Position numbers and translations under genes: made by a program
Shown here: in pieces, positions 19,443 through 23,424 of the stretch
Numbering within the stretch: the first letter of the stretch is position 1
Layout of the letters: each line of letters begins with the position of its first letter
The notes under the pieces: model-generated
Seen by the model: the letters and a program-made list of their open reading frames with translations, nothing else
Database searches by the model: none
What the model was told of the DNA's origin: nothing
Assembly (NCBI RefSeq): GCF_001861355.1
Contig: NZ_MASN01000001.1
Span: forward strand, 186,001-250,000
Reading direction: 5' to 3'
From: Natrialba sp. SSL1
GTDB lineage: Archaea; Halobacteriota; Halobacteria; Halobacteriales; Natrialbaceae
Length of the DNA: 64,000 nucleotides

Positions 19443-21665
19443 TCAGTCGAACAGCACCCGATCCAGAATCGGCCGCAGGAACGACCCACGGCGCGTTTTC
19501 TTCGAGTGAACCAGCAACACCGGCCCTTCAACTGAGGCTGCGATCCGGTCCGAACGTTGCTCGACGAGGAGGTCGGGGAGCCGCCGGTGGGTCATCGTAC
19601 TCAGCATGACGAGCTGGGCCGACTCGAGTTCAGTCGTCAGATCGCCGATCGAATTGTTCGTTCTGAGGATCGACGACGCGACGGGGACGGTGCAGAGGTC
19701 GTCGAGTTCGGCGTGGTACTCTTCGATCGTCTCCTCGAGTTCCTCGGGGGCGTCCTCGGAGACGGTAAAGACGAACCGGATGCGGGCGTCGAGGACATCG
19801 GCCATCGCGTTGGCGAGTTCGACTTTGAGGGGGTCGTTGAACGGACTGCGATCGGTGACGATTGCGATCTCCTCTAGTTCGATTGGCTGTTCGTGCTGGA
19901 CGAAGACCACGTCACAGGGGGCGTGTTCCATGATCCAGTCGGTATCGCGGCCGAAGAGCGTGTCGAGTCGACTCGTCGGTTTTTGCCGGGCGAGCACGAG
20001 GTCGGCACCGGTGCGGTCGGCGAAGTTGACGACCGCGTGGCGGGTGTCGTGGCTGACGATTTCGCCGACTTCGACGGGGACCTCGAGGTAGCGCACGAGG
20101 TCGTCGGTTCGCTCTTCGAACTCGGCGTCCTCGGGGGTGAGCTCCTCGGCGGCGGTGTCGAGGGGAACCTGGTCGGGGACTTCGTCGAAGCGGATCACGC
20201 GGATTCGGCCGCCCTGTTGGCGGACGATCGGTGCGGCGAGCTGGATCAGCGCGTCTTCTTGCTCTCTGGTCACGTCACGGCGAATCGGAATGAGGACCTC
20301 GTACCGGTCGTCGTCCGCGAGCTGTTCTTCGGTGTCCCGGACGAACTGTCGGCCGGCCTGTCGGCGTGCGAGGCCCTTGGCAACGCCCTCGCGTTCGACG
20401 CGTGATTCGGCGTACCATTTGTACCAGACGTAGCCGAAGATGACGATCCCGATCGAGCCCGCGATCGGCAGCAGATCCATCCAGCCGATGATGAACACCC
20501 CGGAGACGATACCGAAGAGCTGGACCCACGGATAGCCCGGCGTGTAGAAGTCGGGGTCGTACCACTCGAGATCGCGCTCGCGGAACGCGATCAGTGCGCC
20601 ACAGACGAGGATGTAGACGAGAATCTGGAACGCGCCGGCGGACTTCGCGATCTGTTCGACGTCGAGCGTGAGAATCGCGAAGATCATGAACGCGCCCGTG
20701 GTGACGATGGCGACGATCGGCGTCGCAAAGCGCGGGTGGATGTACTCGAAAACGTCGAGGAAGAGGTTGTCGCGGCTCAGGGCGAGCGGGTAGCGTGAGG
20801 CGGTCAGAATACCGGCGTTCGCGGTACTGACGAGTGCGAGCAGTGCGGCGAGGACGATCGCGAACAGGAACAGCTCACCGAAGAGGACGTCCACAGCTTC
20901 GGCCATCGGTGCTTCCTCACCGGCGAGGGTTTCGCCCTCGATGACGCCGACGAGGACGAAGACGAGCAGCGCGTAGAGGATCGAGGTCGCGACGAGTGAG
21001 GCGAGCAGCCCGAGCGGGAGGTTACGGCCGGGGTTCTCGATCTCCTCAGCAACGGCGGCGACCTTCGTGACACCGGCGTAGGAGACGAGCACAGTTGCAG
21101 TCGCGGTGAAGACGCCGCCCAGTCCCTCGGTAAAGAACGGATCGTAGTTCGTACCGTCGACGCGGATGATCGAACCGGCAACGAAGACAGAGAGGATGAG
21201 AAGCATGACGATGACCATAATCAGCTGCAGGCCGCCGGTCTGTTTGACGCCGATCAGGTTGACCGCGATCAAAATGAGCGCGAACGTCACCGCGACTGCC
21301 TCGATACTCGGGAGGGCGATCACGGCTTCGAGGTAGAACATGCCGCCGACGAGTGCGAGTGCGCCCTTTAGCATCAACATGAGCCAGGTGCCGAGGCCGG
21401 CGATAGTTCCCACAGCAGGCCCCATCCCGCGTTCAATGAAAACGTAGTCGCCGCCGGCCTCGGGCATCGCCGTTCCGAGTTCGGCGATGCTCAGTGCGGC
21501 CGGCACGACGAGAATCGCAGCGATCACGAACGAGAGGATAACCGCCGGCCCGGCCTCGGCCATCGCAATGCCAGGCAGGATGAAGATGCCGCTACCGATC
21601 ATCGCGCCCATACTGATTGCGATAACGGAGAACAGACCGAGATCACGTTCGAGATCCTTCGCCAT
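19443..21665 (-). CDS. APC amino-acid permease with C-terminal USP domains
   Basis: This 740-aa protein combines an APC-superfamily transporter (about residues 1-425, 12 membrane segments; IGSGIFILPGIAM in TM1 and YAGVTKVAAVAEEIENPGRN are typical) with two universal-stress-protein-like domains (about 455-590 and 600-725). Such fusions are common in haloarchaea; the USP part probably regulates transport by nucleotide binding. The gene lies opposite to its neighbours, between ipk and the RNase J gene. The substrate is unknown. Confidence 0.87.
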   Translation of the reverse strand: MAKDLERDLGLFSVIAISMGAMIGSGIFILPGIAMAEAGPAVILSFVIAAILVVPAALSIAELGTAMPEAGGDYVFIERGMGPAVGTIAGLGTWLMLMLKGALALVGGMFYLEAVIALPSIEAVAVTFALILIAVNLIGVKQTGGLQLIMVIVMLLILSVFVAGSIIRVDGTNYDPFFTEGLGGVFTATATVLVSYAGVTKVAAVAEEIENPGRNLPLGLLASLVATSILYALLVFVLVGVIEGETLAGEEAPMAEAVDVLFGELFLFAIVLAALLALVSTANAGILTASRYPLALSRDNLFLDVFEYIHPRFATPIVAIVTTGAFMIFAILTLDVEQIAKSAGAFQILVYILVCGALIAFRERDLEWYDPDFYTPGYPWVQLFGIVSGVFIIGWMDLLPIAGSIGIVIFGYVWYKWYAESRVEREGVAKGLARRQAGRQFVRDTEEQLADDDRYEVLIPIRRDVTREQEDALIQLAAPIVRQQGGRIRVIRFDEVPDQVPLDTAAEELTPEDAEFEERTDDLVRYLEVPVEVGEIVSHDTRHAVVNFADRTGADLVLARQKPTSRLDTLFGRDTDWIMEHAPCDVVFVQHEQPIELEEIAIVTDRSPFNDPLKVELANAMADVLDARIRFVFTVSEDAPEELEETIEEYHAELDDLCTVPVASSILRTNNSIGDLTTELESAQLVMLSTMTHRRLPDLLVEQRSDRIAASVEGPVLLVHSKKTRRGSFLRPILDRVLFD

Positions 21666-21859
21666 TACTCACGTATTCTGAACGGAAGGTTAGAAACCTT
21701 CGCATCTCGGAACCGAGTGGGCGATATTCCGAACGAGAACGGAAATATTGCCGTGAAAATAGCCACTCGCGTGACAGCCGTTCAGTTTCAGTGCAGTTCC
21801 CTCCCGGGGAGCAACTACTGGCATCGTGCCGAGTACGGGTGGGGTTCCAACCCACTGCG

Positions 21860-21867
21860 TTTTTAAC
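21860..21867 (+). promoter_or_regulatory. TATA-like box ahead of the RNase J leader
   Basis: TTTTTAAC lies about 210 nt upstream of the rnj ATG. By the usual archaeal spacing transcription would start near 21885-21892, which gives a leader of about 185 nt, long for a haloarchaeon. Confidence 0.5.
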
Positions 21868-21884
21868 ACCCGGGCGTGTAGATG

Positions 21885-22071
21885 GCAGTAGCGAAACCCG
21901 CGGGCAAGTGCGTCTCGGGGCGGTACTGGCGACGAACGGCGTCGTCACACCGCCACTATGCCGAACGCATAGCGGGATGGCCGACGCGCTGTAAGACGCC
22001 GGGGCCGTACGAGCAGGAGTCCGCGGACTGTTTCGGTGAGAGTCAATACGCGGCTTTCAGTGCTACGAACT
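21885..22071 (+). ncRNA. Structured RNase J leader or independent small RNA
   Basis: The region between the TATA box and rnj folds well by eye. GCGTCT (21910-21915) pairs with AGACGC (21994-21999) and encloses two hairpins: GGCGGT/ACCGCC with inner GACGA/TCGTC (21919-21954), and CTATGC/GCATAG around CGAAC (21956-21972). A perfect 12-bp palindrome AGTCCGCGGACT follows at 22018-22029. The rest of the 406-nt gap (21666-21859) shows no gene. It does not contain the GAGGAAAGTCC of RNase P RNA or SRP RNA landmarks. Function unknown; autoregulation of RNase J is one possibility. Confidence 0.45.
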
Positions 22072-23424
22072 ATGGAAATCGAAATCGCAACAATCGGCGG
22101 CTACGAAGAAGTTGGACGGCAGATGACTGCTGTCCGCGCCGGTGACGACGTCGTTATCTTCGACATGGGGCTGAACCTCTCGCAGGTTCTCATCCACGAC
22201 AACGTCGAAACCGAGCGGATGCACAGTCTCGACCTGATCGACATGGGCGCAATTCCGGACGACCGGATCATGAGCGACCTCGAAGGTGACGTGCAGGCCA
22301 TCGTGCCGACACACGGCCACCTGGACCACATCGGTGCCATCTCCAAGCTGGCCCACCGCTACGACGCACCCATCGTCGCGACGCCCTTTACGATCGAACT
22401 GGTCAAGCAACAGATCGAGGGCGAACAGAAGTTCGGCGTCGAGAACGACCTCGTCAAGATGGACGCCGGCGAAACGATGTCGATCGGCGACTCCGGTAAG
22501 GTCGACCTCGAATTCGTTAACGTCACCCACTCGATTATCGACGCAATCAACCCAGTCCTGCACACCCCAGAGGGTGCGGTCGTCTACGGACTGGACAAGC
22601 GCATGGACCACTCGCCGGTGCTCGGCGACCCGATCGACATGGAGCGCTTCCGGGAGATCGGTCGCGAAGGTGAAGGCGTCCTCTGTTACATCGAGGACTG
22701 TACCAACGCGAACAAGAAGGGCCGGACACCCTCCGAGAGCGTCGCCCGCGAACACCTCAAGGACGTCCTCTACAGCATGGAGGACTACGACGGCGGCATC
22801 GTCGCCACGACGTTCTCGAGTCACATCTCGCGTGTTACGAGCCTCGTCGAGTTCGCGAAGGACATCGGCCGACAGCCGGTCCTCCTCGGGCGCTCGATGG
22901 AGAAGTATTCCGGTACCGCAGAACGACTCGACTTCGTCGACTTCCCGGACGACCTCGGCATGTTCGGCCACCGCAAGTCCGTCGACCGCACGTTCAAGCG
23001 GATCATGAACGAGGGCAAGGAGAACTACCTGCCCGTCGTGACGGGCCACCAGGGCGAGCCACGCGCGATGCTCACCCGTATGGCCCGCGGCGAGACGCCG
23101 TACGAACTGGACGACGGCGACAAGGTCGTCTTCTCCGCTCGCGTGATCCCGGAGCCGACGAACGAGGGCCAGCGCTACCAGGCCGAAAAGCTGCTCGGCA
23201 TGCAGGGCGCTCGCGTCTACGACGACATCCACGTTTCCGGCCACCTCAACCAGGAAGGCCACTACGAGATGCTCGACGCACTGCAGCCCCAGAACATCAT
23301 TCCGGCCCACCAGGACCTGAAGGGACTGTCGGGCTACGTCAAGCTCTGTGAGAGCGAGGGGTACCAGATGGGACGGGACATCCACGTCTCGCGCAACGGC
23401 AACCTCATTCAGCTTGTCGAGTGA
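22072..23424 (+). CDS. rnj: Ribonuclease J (beta-CASP MBL RNase)
   Basis: This 450-aa metallo-beta-lactamase fold nuclease is archaeal RNase J, a 5'-3' exoribonuclease in mRNA turnover. The zinc motif HGHLDH is in [20 protein letters not shown]; beta-CASP motifs follow ([49 protein letters not shown]). The start at ATG 22072 gives the family N-terminus [18 protein letters not shown]; an earlier in-frame ATG lies in the structured leader. The prenyl synthase gene follows after 1 nt. Confidence 0.94.

Follow-up and report, generated by a model that had tools for sequence, protein, structure and literature searches.

What is the non-coding, structured stretch of approximately 180 nt that lies between a TATA box and the ATG of the rnj gene, on the same strand, in the haloarchaeon Natrialba sp. 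SSL1? In Haloferax volcanii 72% of the protein-coding transcripts are leaderless, only 97 5' UTRs are longer than 150 nt, and control by structured leaders has been judged not typical (PMC4983044). The locus was analysed within a stretch of 64,000 nt (hereafter, the window), in which rnj forms a divergent pair with an APC-type transporter gene (19443-21665, minus strand) and is followed by the gene of geranylfarnesyl diphosphate synthase (NF040789). The rnj protein matches the RNase J family TIGR00649 above the cutoff (E 4e-126), and the RNase J proteins of N. hulunbeirensis and N. chahannaoensis are 99% identical to it.

The features of the region are listed in Table 1. The TATA box, enclosing stem, hairpins and 12-bp palindrome that the initial annotation had described upstream of the RNase J gene are all present. 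A second 6-bp helix, missed at that time, extends the enclosing 6-bp stem (CGAAAC/GTTTCG) by pairing CCGCGG (element P) with the CCGCGG of the palindrome (element D). The folding energy of the leader corresponds to z = -3.9, a value as low being obtained in 0/150 dinucleotide shuffles; a slightly different leader span yielded z = -2.4, and across leaders z ranged from +0.2 to -5.5, several of them being unremarkable. The loop of hairpin 2 (21990-21997; CUGUAAGA, UGUAAGAC, TGTAAGAC) is near-invariant across families while the stems of this hairpin vary, and it is a putative binding site of some partner.

Table 1. Promoter, leader elements and coding region of rnj (positions in the window).
Feature	Position	Strand	Basis
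Promoter: AACCCACTGCG and TATA box TTTTTAA (21860-21866)	21849-21866	+	Sequence, conservation
Predicted transcription start region, ~30 nt after first T of TATA	21888-21891	+	Constant distance between TATA and helix, leader types A, B and C
Closing helix, 5' strand: CGAAAC (21892-21897) and CCGCGG (element P, 21898-21903)	21892-21903	+	Pairs with 22030-22035 and 22021-22026
Hairpin 1: basal stem GTGCGT../..ACGCAT conserved, distal arm highly variable	21908-21970	+	Covariation in A2
Hairpin 2: GGCC-GAC-GCG[CUGUAAGA]CGC-CGG-GGCC	21979-22006	+	Alignments A2, A4; covariance model R1
12-bp palindrome AGTCCGCGGACT holding CCGCGG (element D, 22021-22026)	22018-22029	+	Sequence; TCCGCGG invariant in Natrialbaceae
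GTTTCG, 3' strand of outer closing stem	22030-22035	+	AU to GU changes in A2
Hairpin 3: GAGAGTC/GGCTTTC, 13 nt before start codon	22038-22058	+	Compensatory variants
rnj, RNase J family beta-CASP ribonuclease, 450 aa + stop	22072-23424	+	NCBIfam TIGR00649

In a DNA search of 61 genomes, cross-genus conservation set in sharply at the promoter, at ca. 21846-21850 (mostly query position 147-150), and continued to the ATG; upstream of 21848, matches came from close congeners only. Base pairing was then assessed in an alignment of 30 Natrialbaceae leaders (A2), in which 97.3% of the base-pair cells are retained, a value reached by 0/500 shuffles. Two-sided changes were observed in 7 pairs of this alignment (shuffled mean 1.9; 0/500 shuffles had as many), and shifting the partner by 1-3 columns caused pairing to fall to 27-50%. 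The closing helices CGAAAC/GUUUCG and CCGCGG/CCGCGG are 96.7% and 100% paired in A2, hairpin 1 holds four pairs with two-sided changes, and hairpin 3 occurs in the compensatory variants GAGTGCC/GGCACTC and GAGTGCG/CGCGCTC. As the P.D core is without variation among the Natrialbaceae of A2, covariation in this family rests on the flanking helices, together with other families.

Variation of the core itself was found in 16 Halorussus-type leaders (alignment A3), in which the homologous P.D helix reads GCUCGCGG/CCGCGAGC, GCUCGGGG/CCCCGAGC, GCUUGGAG/CUCCGAGC or CCUCGCGG/CCGCGAGG. At one of its pairs 8 sequences have CG and 7 have GC, and this exchange is direct evidence for the long-range P.D helix. 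Pairing in A3 is 96.5%; the number of two-sided pairs was reached by 2/500 shuffles and the other measures by 0/500. Covariation of the stems, by which the initial annotation had proposed to judge its reading, is therefore present both in A2 and in Halorussus, and on this comparative evidence it supports hairpin 1, hairpin 3 and, most clearly in Halorussus, the predicted closing helix. In the Halorussus relatives (L175-L188) hairpin 3 has grown into tandem GC-rich hairpins such as GGCGTGGCTTTGCCACGGAA, whose number differs between species.

We searched 116 genomes of the class with a covariance model spanning hairpin 2 to the ATG (R1; mainly sequence, with 8 base pairs). It matched in 71 of them, with one copy per genome, and 71 of its 73 matches lie on the rnj strand within approximately 300 nt upstream of the rnj start, most of them abutting the gene. 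The two matches located away from rnj are both weak (E 0.004 in G110 and E 0.005 in G087:C1). A search with a degenerate DNA pattern, whose permitted spacers were longer than those of most members, found only 3. At one locus (L081; G069:C3:2302490-2302867) the leader appears interrupted or partly duplicated, with two matches approximately 200 nt apart and AT-rich sequence between them. Because 71 of the 73 matches are directly 5' of rnj, the leader is a cis element of one gene rather than a dispersed small RNA. The initial annotation had offered both a structured RNase J leader and an unannotated small RNA: the former is borne out by covariation, class-wide conservation, TATA spacing and linkage to rnj, and the latter is made less likely by the strict cis linkage, a small RNA being possible as a processed by-product of the leader.

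The architecture described above (type A) is one of at least three found at haloarchaeal rnj genes. Most haloarchaea without it have a type B leader at rnj (families f4, f6, f8 and f10 and one Natrialbaceae genome). In type B, ACCGAG, located ca. 31 nt after the TATA start, forms the closing stem with a CTCGG situated 13-16 nt upstream of the ATG; a hairpin of this leader covaries (CGGTCGCC/GGCGACCG, CGGCCGCC/GGCGGCCG, CGGCCGTC/GACGGCCG, CGGTCGCTC/GAGCGACCG). Many haloarchaea also carry a second rnj paralogue with a type C leader (L152, L154, L169, L199-L206), in which AACCGAAAGACGCGCUGUC is found approximately 31 nt after the TATA box and GATCGG shortly 5' of the ATG. A few genomes (e.g., those of L093 and L092) have no clear leader of type A, B or C.

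Type A leaders almost all keep the promoter sequence, as do many of type B. Many rnj promoters have in common the conserved segment AACCCACTGCG (21849-21859), located 5' of the TATA box. This segment departs from the haloarchaeal BRE consensus, CGAAA, and is possibly a strong-promoter or regulator site. The distance from the TATA box to the 5' strand of the closing helix is 30-32 nt in 76/86 type A leaders; it is likewise fixed in 35/35 leaders of type B, and is 31 nt in 7/7 of type C. In archaea, transcription starts at a roughly constant distance from the TATA box; with the helix spacing fixed as well, the first nucleotides of the mRNA should lie in the closing helix, and these spacings predict an rnj mRNA whose 5' end is tucked into that helix in all three types. 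In the literature accessible to us, no published transcription start or leader was found for HVO_2724 (Haloferax volcanii), and RNase J is not named in the Halobacterium atlas.

The whole window and 16 type A, B and C loci were also compared with Rfam at the gathering threshold, and no match was found at the leader; nor was a published description of an rnj leader found in a literature search confined to main texts outside subscription journals. An H/ACA or C/D guide RNA was considered and rejected, no Rfam guide family matching at the gathering threshold and the only hit (sR1, 10.9 bits) falling within the rnj coding frame. The strict cis linkage to rnj and the conservation up to the ATG also speak against an H/ACA guide RNA of the sR-h45 kind.

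A two-state switch was considered as well. At the foot of hairpin 1 lies AGCGGGA (element L), an alternative pairing partner for element P, and in L191-L198 the three elements P, L and D vary in concert; in many families, L pairs with element M, which follows hairpin 2. P.L was not supported by a swap test, in which the native sequences scored worse than the permuted ones; the test backed P.D weakly, and the P.D core is nearly invariant. In the structure ensembles P.D with L.M is far above P.L, with approximately zero P.L pairs (anchors were misplaced in L190, L198, L174, L179 and L086). Because the ensembles so strongly favour P.D with L.M, the switch was downgraded to unproven.

Taken together, these results support a conserved, structured, cis-linked element standing between the promoter and the start codon of rnj, which we infer to be the 5' UTR of the rnj mRNA, with a regulatory role. 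The explanation that we prefer, to which we assign a probability of roughly 0.5, is that this 5' UTR protects the mRNA at its 5' end and governs rnj expression by way of RNase J feedback. A cis-acting leader of approximately 180 nt would be made from its own TATA promoter, placing the 5' strand of the long-range closing helix at the predicted transcript start, with two internal hairpins and a third before the start codon. Homologues of RNase J work in the 5'-to-3' direction, and with its 5' end buried in the helix the rnj mRNA would be shielded from 5'-dependent decay; when abundant, RNase J would bind, open or endonucleolytically cut the leader, and rnj expression would go down, in a negative feedback loop.

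That RNase J is the probable effector is suggested by the gene specificity of the leader, by the several folds in which the 5' end is predicted to be buried, by the frequent action of ribonucleases on their own mRNA (PMC3997798), and by the properties of the enzyme in Haloferax volcanii, where it is essential and has endonuclease activity, in an organism without an exosome (PMC10470531). As the RNase J complexes of Haloferax also work 3' to 5' (PMC10470531), shielding of the 5' end alone may be insufficient. The presence of three different folds on one gene suggests that the leader responds to the gene product or its activity. More tentatively, the leader folds, at least three in number, which would clamp the outermost 5' nucleotides to the sequence just preceding either the start codon or the last hairpin, might be an accessibility device sensed by RNase J, convergent with the control of RNase E in bacteria.

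One possible alternative, which we consider rather doubtful, is a regulatory UTR that responds to something other than RNase J, i.e., a riboswitch for a small molecule, a sensor of salt or temperature, or a site bound by another RNA-binding protein, e.g., L7Ae or an Lsm/Sm protein. The near-invariant loop of hairpin 2 (UGUAAGAC) across many families does resemble a specific recognition site, and alternative P.L pairings are possible in several families; however, most riboswitches are not confined to a single gene in each genome as this leader is, in other families rnj carries another fold, and one folding state is strongly favoured. An unlikely scenario is a passive 5' UTR, in which the helix and hairpins protect the mRNA or set its translation rate with no feedback. 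The predicted sequestration of the 5' end in all three leader types would agree with it, as would the stabilization of mRNA by 5' roadblocks where RNase J is present (PMC3997798), but the conserved internal hairpins and the exact loop sequence exceed what a simple barrier would need.

An independent small RNA gene that adjoins rnj by chance is very improbable. Its own strong promoter, its compact fold and the rarity of long leaders in haloarchaea (PMC4983044) could be cited in its favour, yet nearly all model matches are directly 5' of rnj, conservation reaches the ATG, no separate copy was found among the 116 genomes, and no terminator was identified. Chance structure of GC-rich DNA, or a coding sequence (an N-terminal extension or upstream ORF, for which an in-frame GTG start 36 nt 5' of the ATG might be invoked), can practically be dismissed, as it is contradicted by the compensatory changes, by a distance from element D to the ATG that is spread over all three frames in Natrialbaceae (22/10/5), and by loops of variable length.

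With RNase J feedback as the preferred reading, the closest parallels are bacterial. The E. coli rne (RNase E), pnp and rnc leaders likewise belong to ribonuclease genes, and the rne hairpin is bound by the enzyme (PMC3997798). Both enzyme and sequence are unrelated to those of rnj, whose leader would differ from that of rne in having its 5' end buried in a closing helix, the feedback being proposed by analogy. In B. subtilis another decay ribonuclease, RNase Y, controls its own mRNA (rny); the cleavages reported include the early ORF, and the abstract of that report mentions no conserved helix closing the 5' end (PMC10303841). Within the window, the leuA-Halobacteria RNA (Rfam RF03001; 57915-57967, minus strand, 69.3 bits) is also a known, conserved haloarchaeal cis-regulatory RNA, but it is 53 nt long and belongs to another gene, and the rnj leader has no match to it. 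A structured leader on a ribonuclease gene is of a kind known in bacteria, and the rnj leader family is without an Rfam entry.

The conservation of the leader suggests that RNase J production is controlled through its own mRNA. A leader that covaries and spans the class, placed at so central a gene as that of an essential enzyme of RNA decay, would clearly be exceptional among haloarchaea, and would provide both a case of post-transcriptional control, possibly by enzyme feedback, in archaea lacking an exosome and an RNA family to annotate. Control of RNase J dosage would be valuable where the enzyme is essential and the exosome is absent.
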